Shown in pieces: positions 9,055-55,653 of a DNA stretch of 61,833 bases. The notes below the pieces were generated by a model. It was given only the letters and a program-made list of their open reading frames with translations, did not search any database and was not told the DNA's origin. Position 1 is the first letter of the stretch. Each line of letters starts with the position of its first letter. This stretch comes from Coriobacteriales bacterium (GTDB lineage Bacteria; Actinomycetota; Coriobacteriia; Coriobacteriales; UMGS124), in contig JAFWFL010000053.1 in the NCBI GenBank assembly GCA_017515595.1, positions 1 to 61,833 of the forward strand, given 5' to 3'. The position numbers and the translations under genes were made by a program.

Positions 9055-9114
9055 GTGTCAAAGAGACAGGTGCTTAAGCACTATAGCGTGCTAAAGCACC
9101 TGTCTCTTTGACAC
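9055..9114. repeat. REP-like inverted repeat (21-nt arms)
   Basis: Perfect 21-nt arms starting GTGTCAAAGAGACAGGTGCT flank an 18-nt loop. It resembles the GACAGGTGCC palindromes that are dispersed in genomes carrying REP-associated transposases. It may also serve as a terminator for the gene ending at 9030. Confidence 0.75.
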
Positions 9115-9120
9115 GCTTGA

Positions 9121-9247
9121 CTCTTGCAAGTTATGACGAGCGCTAGCATGATCAATTCTCAAATGTTTAAAATTATCTGGGCTTTTGCCGAGAAAACCTT
9201 CAGAATTTGCTTACCGTCATGCTAGTACTCGGCATAACTTGCAAGAG
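9121..9247. mobile_element. Small inverted-repeat element, family A copy 1
   Basis: 31-nt terminal inverted repeats (28/31 matching; CTCTTGCAAGTTATG at the ends) enclose a 65-nt core with AAATTATCTGGGCTTTTGCC. A second copy at 49004-49122 has different but equally long arms, the same CAAGTT and CTAG words, and almost the same core. There is no ORF inside, so it fits a MITE-like element or a conserved structured RNA or DNA element. Confidence 0.6.
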
Positions 9248-9346
9248 TAAGATCTTTTGACCCCAATATCATATAATGCATTTATTTCGAGGTACAAATG
9301 TGTGATCTGAGCATTCGTAGATTGCATGTGCAGAAGTACGCTCTGC

Positions 9347-16537: not shown

Positions 16538-16733
16538 TCTCGTGCAGAGAATTTGCCAATTCATGACTACTCAAACGCATTTGAGTAGCCTGCCAAGGAG
16601 AGCAAGAAAAACTAGCCGAGAAGAACCCGCAGGTCAGCGATGCGGGCTTCTCGGCATATTGGGTTGAGTATAGAAAAACAGACTACTCAAATGCGTTTGA
16701 GTAGTCATGAATTGGCAAATTCTCTGCACGAGA
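16538..16733. mobile_element. Inverted-repeat element, family B copy 1
   Basis: 51-nt perfect terminal inverted repeats beginning TCTCGTGCAGAGAATTTGCC. Each arm holds an inner palindrome (CTACTCAAA/TTTGAGTAG), and the centre is a second hairpin (GCCGAGAAG...CTTCTCGGC, about 16615-16654). There is no ORF. A second copy starts at 61738 in the other orientation and matches through the centre until the window ends. It borders the truncated reductase gene, so it is mobile or recombinogenic. Confidence 0.72.
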
Positions 16734-40478: not shown

Positions 40479-40711
40479 GTTGCGCATAAAACTGATCCTA
40501 TTTTGGCCACAAATTTTGAATGTGTGTCCACTCCAAGTTAAACCATAGTCCAAATCTCTCCAGCCGAGAAACCCTCGAAATGCGTTAGGCTTTTTACCAG
40601 CGAGTTCTTCTCGGCAGGGTAATTTGAAGGTTGCGATAAAGCTTGGATGGAGCGCTGAGTGGCCACACATTCAAGATATGTGGCCAAAATAGGGTCAGTT
40701 TTATGCGCAAC
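40479..40711. mobile_element. Inverted-repeat element, family C
   Basis: 55-nt terminal inverted repeats (51/55 matching; ends GTTGCGCATAAAACTGA) enclose a 123-nt centre, itself with GCCGAGAA...TTCTCGGC pairing as in family B. No ORF. It begins directly after the response-regulator stop and could end or stabilise that transcript. The rest of the gap to 40829 shows no gene. Confidence 0.65.
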
Positions 40712-42583: not shown

Positions 42584-42740
42584 ATGATGCCATGGTTAAA
42601 AGGTTAAGATGAGTGAAACTGGGGACTGGCTCCTGTTGCATTTGCAGGAAAGTCTTTGGTAAAAGGTTAGACCCATGTGCAAATGTAACCGGTGTCTGTC
42701 CCCAGTTTCACTCATTTTAACCTTTTAACCCTGGCATCAT
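42584..42740. mobile_element. Inverted-repeat element, family D
   Basis: Arms of about 46 nt (ATGATGCCATGGTTAAAAGG / its complement with few mismatches) that include ATGAGTGAAACTGGGGAC. Two internal GCAAATG words also face each other. ATGAGTGAAAC recurs at 43294. No ORF. The remaining gap 42448-42583 is AT-rich with repeated ATTGAATAACCG (42480 and 42559), likely the promoter region of the hemolysin III gene. Confidence 0.6.
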
Positions 42741-45267: not shown

Positions 45268-45425
45268 ATGGTAACAAGGTAACAGGGGAGGTAACAGGGG
45301 ACATGGAGGTAACAGGGGACATATCCCTGTTACCTTAATATTGAAATAATAGAAGAACACACAGCTACAAATGTATATATACTTACATTATTAAGGTAAC
45401 AGGGATATGTCCCCTGTTACCTTAA
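45268..45425. repeat. GTAACAGGGG REP-like cluster
   Basis: GGTAACAGGGG occurs three times head to tail, then its inverse (CCCTGTTACC), then after about 55 nt a further palindrome AAGGTAACAGGGATATGTCC with CCTGTTACCTTA. It is the largest cluster of this dispersed family in the window. Confidence 0.75.
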
Positions 45426-49003: not shown

Positions 49004-49122
49004 TGCAAGTTGTTGCCGATACTAGCGTATCAATATCTTAATAGTAAAAAATTATCTGGCCTTTTGCCGGGAAACTCATGGATATTTGTTCATCGATACG
49101 CTAGTATCGGCAACAACTTGCA
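49004..49122. mobile_element. Small inverted-repeat element, family A copy 2
   Basis: 28-nt perfect arms (TGCAAGTTGTTGCCGATACT...) around a 63-nt centre with AAATTATCTGGCCTTTTGCC, nearly the same centre as in 9121-9247. The arms of the two copies differ but each copy is internally complementary, which means base pairing has been conserved while sequence changed. Confidence 0.65.
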
Positions 49123-50341: not shown

Positions 50342-51783
50342 TTCGCTGGGAATCTCGGCAAAGTCTGTATATGGCAGCTTCTGTAAATATCCTGTATCAA
50401 GATCAACAGGCAAAGGAGAGAGGTCCTCAAAACCAGGGAGTACTGTTCTGAGTTTATGGTGATAGCTGTCTCTGAAGAATATGCAGGAGGAATCATCCCG
50501 GTTTAAATATGTCCCGTATGTCATGAGGCTCATAGCAGGGCATCCTCCATGACAATATGGCAAAAACGGGCATTGCCTGCATTCTTCGCATGCGTTAATG
50601 AGGTCTTTTACCTGAGTGGAGATGATCTGCTGGATTGGGCTTTCGTAAAGCAGAGATTCCAGAGAATTTGTTTTGAGATTACCCAGGTGTACATGTCTGG
50701 ATTTGAACCCTCCCGACATTTGCATGCAGGGAACCGCTTCTCCGTTTGCGCAGACAGAAAGCCCTTTTGAACAAAGCAGATAGTTCTCAAATTTTTCTTT
50801 TGGTTTATGAATCTTTTTTGCTGTAAAAGCGGCGGTTTTTTTATATCCAGGACTTCAAACTGCCAGAATTCCAGATCCATGTGATGTTCTTCTGAGGCAT
50901 AGCTCTGCATGATTTCAAGCGCGTTGTCAAAATATTCGTTCCAGGTCAGACAGGAATCTTTTCCGTTTTCAAACCACCTTGGGGCTTCTGTGGTTCTGAT
51001 CACCCGTGTGTTATCAACACCGAGTGCATCCATAGCTTTGAGAGTTGGCAGAATACAACTAAGGTTCCGACGGTTTATATTTGTTTGTGTCTGAACAGGA
51101 AATCCATTTTCAATACATGTCCGGATAGCGCGTATAGTGCGTTCCTCCGCACCTTCTTTATTGCGCATCCAGTCGTGAAAACCAATTCCGTCAAAAGAAA
51201 TTTTCATCAACGGGCGGCTGCCAATTTGTTTCATTTCTTCGAGAATGTTTTGGGTGATAAAAGCGCCGTTGGTATTTACCGCATAAAGTTCCAGTCCCTT
51301 GTCTTGTATGATTTGCACTATCTCCAAAAAGTCTCGGTGCAGCAAGGGCTCGCCGCCGGTGAGCATAACATGGGATATTCCGCATTCGACAGCCCCCTCA
51401 AGAATCCGGCGAATATCGTCGAGGGACAGCTCTTCTGCGGAACGCTCTGAATCCGCCGCGTTAAAGCAGTGGAGACAATTGTAGTTGCAGCGTTCTGTCA
51501 GCTCTATAGTAAGCAGCTTAACAGGGAGGTTACCGAAGAAGTGGAATGCTTGCCAATCTGTGAGTACCTCACCTTCAGAGGCTTCATGTATTAACCCCCT
51601 CGCCGCCAGTGCTTCTAGTTGCGGTGAGGGGGTTAGCTCTTCTGTTCCGTCACAGTGCATGAGCAGCAAAAAATCGCTTTTTGATAACCGGTGTGGCTCC
51701 GTCTCGCCTTTTACACAGTAAGTATATGGAACCCCGGACCAAGATCGCAGACCAATTGTTTTATTCAAAAGGTATTTTGCCAT
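50318..51783 (-). pseudogene. Radical SAM/SPASM peptide maturase, frameshifted in an A7 run
   Basis: Frame 1 (from ATG 51783): about 80 N-terminal residues that could be a precursor-recognition domain, then the radical SAM site C99-x3-C103-x2-C106 (LTERCNYNCLHCFN), MLTGGEPLLHRDF and the rest of the barrel to LEFWQFEVLDIKK. Frame 2 takes over after the A7 run (plus-strand T7 at 50836-50842) with NYLLCSKGLSVCANGEAVPC, then MQMSGGFKSRHVHLGN and the SPASM cysteines in 'CEECRQCPFLPYCHGGCP'. The unshifted protein would have about 490 residues. It starts 9 nt after the precursor gene without its own Shine-Dalgarno, so it is coupled. The frameshift may be inactivation, sequencing error or slippage. 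Confidence 0.82.
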
Positions 51784-51792
51784 CTGTTTTGA

Positions 51793-52116
51793 TTAGCAAT
51801 AGTCGTGCTGAGCGCTGGCGGGCTCGATCTCGAGAGGCTCATCAATAACCAAGATGCCGCCGCTGATTTTGTCGAGGTTTTCGCCGCTCATGTTGGTGAG
51901 ATTGGAATTGGTAGCCACAATATCCTCCGAGTACAAGCGGAGCAAAAGCTCGGCTTGCTCATCAGTTAATTCTTCGCCGTAACCACGGACAATTTCCTTA
52001 ACTTCGTCAGCGTTCTCAGCTTTTGTAACATCCTTGATTACTTGCGCAATTGTTTCTTTGGGGAACTTGTCCATCATCTCTACGAGATTCTTTTTGATTG
52101 CTTGTATGTCTGACAT
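51793..52116 (-). CDS. RiPP precursor peptide with Gly-Gly leader
   Basis: 107 residues. Residues 1-87 form a charged helical leader (LVEMMDKFPKETIAQVIKDV, then ELTDEQAELLLRLYSE) that ends LSxExL-like in MSGENLDKISGG. This is the Nif11/double-glycine leader ending cut by C39-type peptidases. The predicted core is residues 88-107: ILVIDEPLEIEPASAQHDYC, hydrophobic and acidic, with a single Cys at the end. A GAGG ribosome binding site lies upstream. A radical SAM/SPASM gene follows at 9 nt. No ABC-C39 exporter is in the window. The core does not match a class known to me, so the modification is unknown. Confidence 0.72.
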   Translation of the reverse strand: MSDIQAIKKNLVEMMDKFPKETIAQVIKDVTKAENADEVKEIVRGYGEELTDEQAELLLRLYSEDIVATNSNLTNMSGENLDKISGGILVIDEPLEIEPASAQHDYC

Positions 52117-52190: not shown

Positions 52191-52219
52191 ATCATGGCAA
52201 TCTCGTGCAGCTGTGTCAA
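52191..52219 (-). promoter_or_regulatory. Promoter of the RiPP operon
   Basis: On the minus strand TTGACA (52219-52214), 17-nt spacer, CATGAT (52196-52191). The start of transcription would lie near 52184, about 70 nt before the precursor ATG. Confidence 0.5.
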
Positions 52220-52344
52220 ACGGATCCCAGAAAGCTCAGGTCTTTTGCTTTCTTTGGGTTTCTTGGCGTTTGGTGTTATGTAGCTGCTTGGGTCGTGTAT
52301 GATCATATTTGTCAAAGGGCACGCATCTGTGCAGGGATGCACCG

Positions 52345-52522
52345 GCAGGTTTTTTGGTTAGGTGAGAGACAACGGGTGAGACAACGGGGACGGAGGGTAT
52401 TGTCTCATTGTTTTTGGTATGGCCATTTTTTGATACGATACCTCTCACTCTGAAAACAATGAGACAATACCCTCCGTCCCCGTTGTCTCACCCGTTGTCT
52501 CTCACCTAACCAAAAAACCTGC
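52345..52522. mobile_element. Inverted-repeat element with 70-nt perfect arms, family E
   Basis: The arms 52345-52414 and 52453-52522 are exact reverse complements over 70 nt (ends GCAGGTTTTTTGGTTAGG), with a 38-nt loop. GAGACAACGGG occurs twice within each arm. No ORF. The right arm ends where the cobalamin aptamer core begins, so the element is either inserted into the riboswitch leader or forms a giant hairpin on its RNA. Confidence 0.8.
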
Positions 52523-52655
52523 TGAGGGAACACGACTGAGAATGTCGGACTACCCCAGTAACCGTGATGCTGACGAACGGGCATCCAAGTCACTCTCCGT
52601 ATTTGGAGGGGAAGACGTCCGCAAGGATGAAGCTAAGCCGGGAGACCTGTTTGCG
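52521..52655 (+). promoter_or_regulatory. Cobalamin riboswitch
   Basis: Conserved elements in the right order: GAGGGAACACGACTGAGAAT, then CGGACTACCCCAGTAACCGT, AAGTCACT, GGGGAAG, and the B12 box AAGCCGGGAGACCTG (52634-52648). It stands 58 nt before btuF. The P1 partner of ACCTG would be CAGGT, which is found at the outer tip of the neighbouring inverted repeat (52346). When B12 binds, expression of the transporter genes is expected to fall; the expression platform probably masks the GAAGGAG at 52693-52699. Confidence 0.85.
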
Positions 52656-52705
52656 AGCCACCACCCATACATGCCGCTGGGACGCGGCACGGGAAGGAGA
52701 AAGCC

Positions 52706-53791
52706 ATGTTTGGCACATTTCATGCACTGCAAAAACACGTAAGGAACTGCGTCTTGCCTGTTATAGCGCTTGTTGTGGCGCTCGCGATCGCATCGCCCGC
52801 ATTGGGTGCGACCGCTCCTGCAACCGCACAGGACGCCGGCTCCAAAGATGCCGCTGCCAAGACGGCGCCTGCTGCAACCGATGCAGCTTCAACGGCAAAA
52901 ACACCTGAGAAGGCCAAAGAGGTTGTGAATGACCCAACCGGTCCGGCCAAGATTGTTGACATGACCGGCCGCGAGATTTCGCTCGACGCACCGGCGACCA
53001 ACATTGTTGCTCTGTCAGCCGCTGACTGCGAGATTCTTTTTGCGGTTGGTGCGGGCGAGACGCTTGTGGGCAGGGGAGAATACTGTGATTATCCTGCAGA
53101 AGTGCTCAAGGTCCCGTCGGTACAGTCGGGATACGAGACCAACATTGAGCAGATTATTGCTCTTGAGCCCCAGGTACTCCTTATGAGCACCATGGCTCAG
53201 ACAAAAGAGCAGGTAGAGGAGCTTGAAGCCGCCGGTATTACCGTGGTTGTCTCGGACGCTCAGGATATTGAGGGTGTCTACGAATCCGTGCGCATGATTG
53301 GTGCGCTTACCGGCCATGCCGGCGATGCCGAGAAGGTTGTCAAAGACATGCAGAAAGATCTTGAGGAGCTTGCCAAGCTTGCGAAAGACAACAAGGGCAA
53401 GACCATTTACTTTGAGGTATCACCCCTCCAATATGGTCTTTGGGCTGCCGGCAAGGGCTCGTTCATGAACGAAGTCTCCGAGCTTTTGGGTCTCGAGAAC
53501 ATTTTTGCCGATATGCCCGCCTGGGCCGAGGTTTCTGAGGAGCAGGTTATTGACCGCAATCCTGACTACATTGTGACCATTTCTATGTACTATGGCGAAG
53601 GCCCCACTCCCATTGAAGAGATCATGGCTCGTCCTGGTTGGGATGTTATTTCTGCCGTTGAGGATGGCAATATCATTAACCTCCCCAACAATGAGCTTTC
53701 GCGCCCGACTCCGCGCATTGCCGAGGGTGCCCGCATGCTTGCAGACTTTATTGCTGCCGAGGATAGCGCACCTGTAGCCAAGGCCGCATAA
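52706..53791 (+). CDS. btuF: Cobalamin ABC transporter substrate-binding protein
   Basis: 361 residues. Signal peptide (VLPVIALVVALAIASPALGA), then a low-complexity Ala/Thr/Lys linker (about 35-75), then the periplasmic-binding fold of class III. It has IVDMTGREISLDAPATNIVA, the family N-terminus, and later 'YPAEVLKVPSVQSGYETNIE', 'QVLLMSTMAQTKEQVEELEA' and 'VISAVEDGNIINLPNNELSR'. It captures corrinoid for the BtuCD-type permease downstream. Siderophore binders share the fold; the riboswitch upstream decides for cobalamin. It lacks a lipobox, which is unusual in a Gram-positive lineage. Confidence 0.88.
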   Translation: MFGTFHALQKHVRNCVLPVIALVVALAIASPALGATAPATAQDAGSKDAAAKTAPAATDAASTAKTPEKAKEVVNDPTGPAKIVDMTGREISLDAPATNIVALSAADCEILFAVGAGETLVGRGEYCDYPAEVLKVPSVQSGYETNIEQIIALEPQVLLMSTMAQTKEQVEELEAAGITVVVSDAQDIEGVYESVRMIGALTGHAGDAEKVVKDMQKDLEELAKLAKDNKGKTIYFEVSPLQYGLWAAGKGSFMNEVSELLGLENIFADMPAWAEVSEEQVIDRNPDYIVTISMYYGEGPTPIEEIMARPGWDVISAVEDGNIINLPNNELSRPTPRIAEGARMLADFIAAEDSAPVAKAA

Positions 53792-53809: not shown

Positions 53810-54856
53810 ATGGCCTCGAAGGGACATATCCAAGACGGGCACTTTGGCCTGCGGGTTTATATTGTTTTTGGACTTGTGACGCTGCTCACGTTCATTCTTT
53901 GTGTAAGCGTGGGCAGCGTTGCCGTACCTCCTGACGAGACCGTCTCGCTCATCTTCAAAGCGATTACCGGTGCCGAGCTGCCCCGCAGTTCTGCCGCATC
54001 AATTATCATCTCATCGCGCGTGCCGCGCGTTCTTTGTGTGGCGCTTACCGGAGCGGCGCTTTCTTTAAGCGGCGCGGCAATGCAGGGTTTGCTCAAAAAC
54101 CCTCTGGCTGACGGTTCTACTCTTGGGGTTTCTTCCGGCGCAAGCCTCGGCGCTGTACTTGCGATTGCGCTTGGACTGGAGTTTGCGGCTTTGCCGTTTG
54201 CCGGAACCATGGTCACGGCTGTGGTCTTTGCTTTTGTGTCACTTCTGGCCATTCTCTCGCTTGCCTGGCGCATGGACCGCAGTCTCTCCACCAACACCAT
54301 CATTCTCATAGGTGTGATTTACTCAATGTTTGTGAGCAGCCTGCTTGCGCTCATTGTTACCTTTGCGTCCGATAAGGTCAAGACCATTACATTCTGGACC
54401 ATGGGGTCGCTTGCGGGGTCGAGCTATGCCAACGCTCTTGTGCTCTTAGGCGCGCTTTTGGTTGGCGGCAGCATCATCTTGAGCAAAGCGCGCGAGCTCA
54501 ACGCGTTCGCTGTGGGAGAAGAGAACGCGGTTCACATAGGTGTTAACGTGAGACGTGTCCGTTTGACAGTACTTGCTGCCGTGGCGCTGCTTACCGGAGT
54601 ATGCGTCTCAATTGGCGGATGCATTGCCTTTGTGGGCCTTGTGGCTCCGCATATGGTACGTATGATTACCGGCCCCAACCATGCACGGCTTCTCCCGGCT
54701 TCTGCTTTTGGCGGAGCTACCTTCCTTATGCTTTGCGACCTGGTAGCTCGTATTATTTTGAATCCTCTCCAGTTACCCATTGGTGTTGTTACCTCGCTCA
54801 TTGGCGCGACGCTGTTTGTAGTGATTCTCTACCGTGGCAGAAAGAAGGCGCTATGA
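53810..54856 (+). CDS. btuC: Cobalamin ABC transporter permease (BtuC/FecCD family)
   Basis: 348 residues with about ten membrane segments. Family signatures are 'LPRSSAASIIISSRVPRVLC', then ALTGAALSLSGAAMQGLLKN and PLADGSTLGVSSGASLGAVL, and late 'GGCIAFVGLVAPHMVRMITG' with PLQLPIGVVTSLIGATLFVV. It is 18 nt after btuF and overlaps btuD by 4 nt, one operon under the riboswitch. Confidence 0.93.
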   Translation: MASKGHIQDGHFGLRVYIVFGLVTLLTFILCVSVGSVAVPPDETVSLIFKAITGAELPRSSAASIIISSRVPRVLCVALTGAALSLSGAAMQGLLKNPLADGSTLGVSSGASLGAVLAIALGLEFAALPFAGTMVTAVVFAFVSLLAILSLAWRMDRSLSTNTIILIGVIYSMFVSSLLALIVTFASDKVKTITFWTMGSLAGSSYANALVLLGALLVGGSIILSKARELNAFAVGEENAVHIGVNVRRVRLTVLAAVALLTGVCVSIGGCIAFVGLVAPHMVRMITGPNHARLLPASAFGGATFLMLCDLVARIILNPLQLPIGVVTSLIGATLFVVILYRGRKKAL

Positions 54857-55653
54857 TTTCTGAGACGGACAGCACGCTGCTCAATGTGACCGGACTAACC
54901 GTGCAGTTCGGAGGACGTTGCGTTGTGCACGACGTGAGTTTCTCGGTTGCCGAGGGGTCGTGGCTTATGCTTGTGGGTCCCAACGGGGCAGGGAAGTCGA
55001 CCATTGTCAATGCCATAAGCCAGACAGTTCCCCATGAGGGGAGCGTTACCTGGTGCGGGCAGGATGTACGGAGTATGAAGCCGCGTGAACGAGCGCGTAT
55101 TATGGGTGTTCTTGCTCAGGGCAACTCGGTTGGATATTCTTTTACCGTTGATGAAGTTGTGAGGCTCGGAAGGTACGCGCACCGACCGTCCCTGTTTGCA
55201 AGAACACAGAACAGTGACCGGTCATATGTTGATGCAGAAGAAAAAGCAATCGAAGAAGCGATTGAGCAAACCGGCCTCACAGATTTACGGTCAAAGTCTG
55301 TTCTCGAGCTCTCGGGCGGCGAGCTCCAGCGCGTGTTTTTGGCGCAGGCGCTGGCACAGCAGCCGTCGCTTTTGTTGCTTGACGAGCCCACCAACCACCT
55401 CGACCTTCTCTACCAACGCCAAACATTCGAACTTCTTGACCACTGGCTCAAAGCTCCCGGTCACGCCATCATCTCGGTTGTTCATGACCTTAGTCTCGCC
55501 TATGCATTCGGCTCAGGCGTTATTCTCCTGCATAACGGCCAAATCATGGGCAAAGGCCCCGCATCCGAGGTCCTCACACCGGACCTTCTCGAACAAGTCT
55601 ACGGCATGGACGTCCAAGCCTGGATGCGAAGCCTCCTGCAACATTGGTGCTGA
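54853..55653 (+). CDS. btuD: Cobalamin ABC transporter ATP-binding protein
   Basis: 266 residues starting at the ATGA overlap with btuC. Walker A is GPNGAGKST (about 42-50), the Q-loop is at VLAQGNS, the signature is LELSGGELQRVFLAQALAQQ, Walker B is LLLLDEPTNHLD and the switch His is in SVVHDLS. It drives uptake through the permease. The gene ends 5 nt before the end of a converging dehydrogenase gene, with no terminator visible between. Confidence 0.93.
   Translation: MISETDSTLLNVTGLTVQFGGRCVVHDVSFSVAEGSWLMLVGPNGAGKSTIVNAISQTVPHEGSVTWCGQDVRSMKPRERARIMGVLAQGNSVGYSFTVDEVVRLGRYAHRPSLFARTQNSDRSYVDAEEKAIEEAIEQTGLTDLRSKSVLELSGGELQRVFLAQALAQQPSLLLLDEPTNHLDLLYQRQTFELLDHWLKAPGHAIISVVHDLSLAYAFGSGVILLHNGQIMGKGPASEVLTPDLLEQVYGMDVQAWMRSLLQHWC

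Follow-up and report, generated by a model that had tools for sequence, protein, structure and literature searches.

The window analyzed here, a 61,833-nt stretch of DNA from a Coriobacteriales bacterium, contains a btuFCD cobalamin riboswitch that very probably carries a mobile palindrome of a REPIN/TIR-dimer-like kind in the apical part of an accessory hairpin, with the palindrome folding as a rod and ligand sensing probably kept. Both components belong to known kinds, a known riboswitch class and a known kind of palindromic repeat; it is the site that is unusual. As we reconstruct it, a ∼47-nt repeat is present in two inverted copies that enclose a 38-nt loop, and the resulting palindrome is lodged between P2 and P3, presumably through transposase-mediated insertion. 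The base of the native hairpin (CGGCAGG/CCTGCTG) is kept, as are P1, P2, P3, the expression platform and the B12 box, and the transcript can fold the insert as a ∼72-bp rod directed away from the core. Feature coordinates are collected in Table 1.

The two arms of the palindrome are complementary at 70 of 70 positions with 38 nt between them, as a first-pass annotation of this DNA had described. With a 26-nt minimum, eight inverted repeats were found in the window, and this structure is both the longest and the sole perfect one. The same annotation had pointed to GCAGGT and ACCTGC at the arm tips and had placed the palindrome directly beside the aptamer core. Both observations hold, with the Rfam match to the core starting at 52525, three bases past the end of the right arm. 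For the segment 52343–52524, a free energy of −149 kcal/mol is predicted for folding as a ∼72-bp rod. Minimum-energy folding of the leader transcript (52310–52705) gave a z score of −16.6 relative to shuffled sequences, with 0 of 100 shuffles equal to it. The seven further long inverted repeats in the window measure 27–63 nt and are 89–98% complementary; among their spans are 42584–42740, 16538–16733, 40479–40711, 45307–45422, 49004–49122 and 9055–9248. The genome seems to be rich in palindromic repeats, which fall into several families.

The core to the right of the palindrome matches the Rfam cobalamin model RF00174 with 64.3 bits (gathering score 31.5; E = 1.3e-13) and is the single match to that model genome-wide. 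Because this local match covers model positions 45–169 of 189, P1 and P2 go unseen by the standard model; it reports the core alone because the insert hides these two elements from it. Both are nonetheless recognizable. The strand TGCGAGCC pairs with GGCACGCA to form P1, bar one A-A, and the window's P2 is homologous to GTGCGGGGACGCAC and GTACAGGGATGTAC in two relatives (L055 and L056, respectively). By inspection, L5 is complementary to the CTGGG motif of the expression platform, and a CTGGG-type loop was also present downstream in those relatives inspected. The TATGAT upstream would give a transcription start at about 52310, to the left of P1, and in many relatives P1 is likewise preceded by TATAAT/TATACT-like boxes. 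A consensus scan returned no full plus-strand promoter near this element.

Relatives were collected via the BtuF-like protein, many of them with the same riboswitch upstream, and an alignment of 23 btuF-linked cobalamin riboswitches formed the basis of a covariance model, R1. All 23 share a short covarying hairpin between P2 and P3, right before the AGGGAA of the core. In this alignment, two-sided changes were found at 6/6 pairs of the accessory hairpin, covariation supported 5/5 pairs of P2 and 4/6 of P1, and 96% of alignment cells were paired versus 34–43% once the partners were slid. The window follows the same order as the relatives, with GGCACGCA, the P2 hairpin GTGCAGGGATGCAC, and then CGGCAGGT...ACCTGCTG directly before AGGGAAC. 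Based on this shared order, the outer arm tips (CGGCAGG..CCTGCTG) are assigned to the base of the native P2-P3 accessory hairpin and not to P1.

R1 matched the window over its full length at 52307–52663 with 131.2 bits, placing P1 and P2 as listed in Table 1 and assigning 168 additional nt to the accessory-hairpin loop. This match was obtained with default filters, while the unfiltered search returned only a shorter one. Applied to 52458–52662 alone, the model scored 113 bits, with right-arm sequence substituting for P1 and P2. A class-wide R1 search trimmed the window's own match to this same span, so the spans from that search cannot show long insertions to be absent elsewhere. The accessory hairpin occupies 182 nt in the window versus 12–33 nt in the relatives measured and, as modeled, has been stretched from ∼7 to ∼72 bp with the core and the closing stem still readable. 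Because of the R1 match, the retention of 51 of the 53 core residues that are invariant across the aligned relatives, and the preserved CTGGG, the leader is read as a single, intact aptamer whose side hairpin is enlarged. One caveat is that, when the whole leader is folded to minimum energy without constraints, P1 does not form and a competing GCAUC/GAUGC hairpin appears at P2. Moreover, the P1 duplex energy of −11.3 kcal/mol is marginal, with 5% of shuffles as good, so the P1 assignment needs the covariance model and cannot stand on energy alone.

The placement of P1 bears on a further proposal of the first-pass annotation, namely that the natural 5′ strand of P1 is GCAGGT at the tip of the left arm and that ACCTGC in the right arm competes with the end of the B12 box for it. 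GCAGGT is indeed complementary to ACCTG at 52645–52649, and a duplex between the arm tip and this 3′ region has a predicted energy of −8.6 kcal/mol, but the P1 identified by R1 does better (−11.3 kcal/mol). In the relatives, the equivalent strand pairs inside its own short hairpin and P1 lies farther out, while in the Rfam structure the CCT at the end of the B12 box pairs with the AGG of P3. The assignment of GCAGGT to P1 was therefore mistaken: it pairs with ACCTGC as the accessory-hairpin base, whose pairs covary at 6/6 positions in the 23 relatives. Since R1 builds P1 from other strands, competition for P1 is not supported and we consider it highly improbable; the annotation had itself named a P1 on other sequence as evidence against its idea. 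Its suggestion that the palindrome was inserted inside the aptamer stands, but the palindrome lies apically in the accessory hairpin that separates P2 from P3.

Table 1. Features of the riboswitch leader, the palindrome and the downstream genes (window coordinates).
Feature	Position	Strand	Basis
Possible −10 element TATGAT	52298..52303	+	sequence and position only; weak
P1 5′ strand (GGCACGCA)	52318..52325	+	model R1 match 52307–52663; fold of shortened version
P2 hairpin GTGCA-GGGA-TGCAC (GTGCAGGGATGCAC)	52329..52342	+	folds; model R1
Native accessory hairpin, 5′ side (CGGCAGGT)	52343..52350	+	covariation in 23 relatives; R1 placement
Left arm, perfect inverted repeat	52345..52414	+	inverted-repeat detection
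Left copy, dispersed REP/TIR-like repeat	52362..52408	+	BLAST boundaries of other genomic copies
Palindrome loop, 38 nt	52415..52452	.	inverted-repeat detection
Right arm, perfect inverted repeat	52453..52522	+	inverted-repeat detection
Right copy, same REP/TIR-like repeat, inverted	52459..52505	-	BLAST boundaries of other copies
Native accessory hairpin, 3′ side (ACCTGCTG)	52517..52524	+	covariation in 23 relatives; R1 placement
Cobalamin riboswitch core (RF00174)	52525..52648	+	Rfam; P3 = 52525–52527 with 52646–52648
L5 CCCAG	52554..52558	+	sequence; possible kissing-loop partner of CTGGG, role inferred
P1 3′ strand (TGCGAGCC)	52652..52659	+	model R1; fold of shortened version
Expression-platform hairpin GCCGC-TGGGAC-GCGGC	52673..52688	+	sequence and relatives; CTGGG motif 52677–52681
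Ribosome binding site AAGGAG	52694..52699	+	sequence; 6 nt before ATG at 52706
BtuF-like substrate-binding protein gene	52706..53791	+	PF01497 over cut-off
BtuC-like permease gene	53810..54856	+	PF01032, 288 bits
BtuD-like ABC ATPase gene	54853..55653	+	PF00005; start at 54853 likely

BLAST analysis indicated that each arm contains a ∼47-nt repeat, around TGAGACAACGGGGACGGAGGGTATTGTCTCA, with matches at about ten further sites in this genome; its GACAACGGGGAC motif has 18 exact occurrences there. Related copies are arranged as inverted pairs on contigs C50 and C105, and the arms of the other inverted pairs are imperfect (93–96% complementary). The repeat went undetected in the 19 other genomes searched, and a search for the element in plasmids gave no match. 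Six Y1_Tnp genes were identified in the genome. The product of one of them, at C105:19329, has an HVHL motif and matches Pfam Y1_Tnp over the cut-off, and a related repeat stands in inverted copies on the two sides of this Y1 HUH gene (31 nt, 90% complementary). Against the REP_Tyr_transpos model the protein scored 70.4 bits (E = 1.4e-19), under the NCBIfam cut-off of 80. The transposase-adjacent repeat copy contains GGGGACAG, which fits the TIR motif GGGGWSAS, and the window copies contain GGGGACGG, with one mismatch to it; no GTAG tag was found at the ends of either window copy. The dispersed repeat, the inverted pairs and the repeat-flanked Y1 HUH gene together identify the element as a REPIN/TIR-dimer-like palindrome in a peripheral hairpin. 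Given the missing tag and the score below the family cut-off, it is called REPIN/TIR-dimer-like rather than a member of either group. Near other Y1_Tnp genes (L013–L016; contigs C122, C42 and C4), the repeats differ, with GTGGCAC, GTGACAC or GAGTCA beside GGGACGGTTCT, as though a separate repeat went with each transposase. Contigs C43 and C44 (L141 and L142) end in what appears to be a further inverted pair, whose inner arm is particular to it (CATCAGGTAGCC / GGCTACCTGATG), and breaks in the assembly seem to fall within these palindromes.

Insertion into a hairpin loop explains the position of the element. The arms are also perfect past the repeat core, by 17 nt on its outer side and 6 nt on its inner side, and plain insertion into a short loop does not account for this. 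The first-pass annotation had suggested recent insertion or gene-conversion-like maintenance, and either may apply: the repeat is of a dispersed family, but perfection extends past it. The long hairpin may have grown or been repaired in place, with template switching in replication copying one arm onto the other once a repeat had arrived and so perfecting the locus-specific flanks too. In line with this, the perfect stretches 52345–52361 and 52409–52414 lie outside the repeat core (52362–52408) and are not common to the other copies, and the other inverted pairs show the imperfect complementarity noted above. The outermost 6 bp are nevertheless native hairpin regardless, and the remainder could come from a long native stem or from a distinct element subtype. 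A longer native stem, a distinct subtype or template-switch copying of an arm would each explain the perfect flanks. We give growth or repair in place a substantial chance, if somewhat short of even; arm copying is compatible with, and not opposed to, the insertion of a mobile palindrome as the explanation of the position.

A fold-back join at the repeat during assembly could also generate a palindrome, and the assembly comprises 134 contigs, with repeat copies at the ends of C43, C44, C55 and C112. Such a join would not give a result in which one model reads both flanks, but here the two flanks form one homologous riboswitch covered end to end by a single R1 match, and portions of the arms are locus-specific. 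We regard an assembly artefact as exceedingly doubtful and rejected it, along with a chance origin.

Because the inserted palindrome is self-complementary and located at the site of the relatives' hairpin, the rod can form with the topology of the aptamer kept. Judging from conservation, sensing of adenosylcobalamin is probably largely intact, and the palindrome most likely folds as a ∼72-bp rod. The still readable core and closing stem suggest that the riboswitch RNA tolerates a large insertion at its accessory hairpin. The element could, on the other hand, be harmful, with terminator-like repeats or RNase III cutting reducing btuFCD expression whatever the ligand state. Two terminator-like sites, at 52387–52406 (+) and 52480–52461 (−), were detected versus 0.6 expected, and a perfect 70-bp duplex of RNA makes a good substrate for RNase III. 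The terminator-like stems are weak, however, with 7 pairs of which 3 are G-C and a single-repeat fold of about −8 kcal/mol. They also compete with the full helix at −146 kcal/mol, and no decay is seen in the aptamer core or the genes. A general loss of expression therefore appears rather unlikely, and termination and RNase III cleavage may be costs of the element. More speculatively, and as a long shot, the transposase-mobilized palindromes of this family may favor pre-existing hairpin loops, giving structured RNA leaders long rods at no cost to their fold, with the rod here now a maintained part of a working riboswitch that serves, for example, as a handle for stability or RNase III processing.

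The btuF reading frame downstream is intact, and its product scores 108 bits against the NCBIfam BtuF model, under the cut-off of 234. The nearest BtuF relatives found were in Clostridia metagenome-assembled genomes at no more than 75% identity, and the btuFCD genes and their riboswitch may have been acquired horizontally. A search of 60 genomes close to the window's own with the riboswitch and gene DNA returned no empty site; the matches were distant, with a clear match in only two others. In the two genomes of the same family, neither an RF00174 riboswitch nor the repeat was detected. On the opposite strand, 50608–52116 includes a gene for a radical SAM protein (PF04055), adjoining a 107-aa ORF ending in ...KISGGILVIDEPLEIEPASAQHDYC that resembles a leader-type peptide precursor, and a promoter-like site is located at 52219–52191 on the strand of the radical SAM gene. 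These genes might represent a RiPP cluster divergent from the riboswitch.

If the mobile-palindrome reading is correct, the btuFCD leader is a natural experiment in the amount of structure that one peripheral helix of a riboswitch can bear, and it illustrates one way in which structured RNAs may be enlarged by mobile palindromes. In the literature titles and abstracts retrieved, with most subscription journals outside the coverage, no description of a riboswitch aptamer with an inserted REPIN or REP element was recognized. REPINs are REP doublets that form hairpins (Bertels & Rainey 2011, PMC3116915). Like them, the window element combines two inverted repeats and a spacer into a single long predicted hairpin, is dispersed in the genome, and is accompanied by a Y1 HUH transposase gene flanked by related repeats. 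Unlike REPINs, it has another repeat sequence, no GTAG tag and a low copy number, and this copy is found inside a structured RNA with arms that are perfect beyond the repeat. The GGGGWSAS motif belongs to the TIR repeats and TIRtrons of TIRYT genes (Di Nocera et al. 2013, PMC3733652), described in a text without mention of Eggerthella, Slackia, Clostridia or riboswitches. As in TIRtrons, inverted repeat copies flank a tyrosine transposase gene and dimers occur; the transposase-adjacent GGGGACAG fits the TIR motif, whereas GGGGACGG in the window copies is one base off.

Cobalamin riboswitches are known to vary in their peripheral elements (PMC11260477). The window's riboswitch is like RF00174 in its core, B12 box, P1, P2, P3, L5/CTGGG loop pair and position before btuFCD, and unlike its relatives in a P2-P3 accessory hairpin of ∼182 nt versus 12–33 nt. 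Palindromic or tandem repeats in other RNA genes likewise lengthen a peripheral helix without obvious loss to the core, as with the Rickettsia palindromic elements and the repeats that extend helices of cyanobacterial RNase P RNA. Their hosts, however, are housekeeping RNAs and not ligand-sensing leaders, and those elements are unrelated to the one described here.
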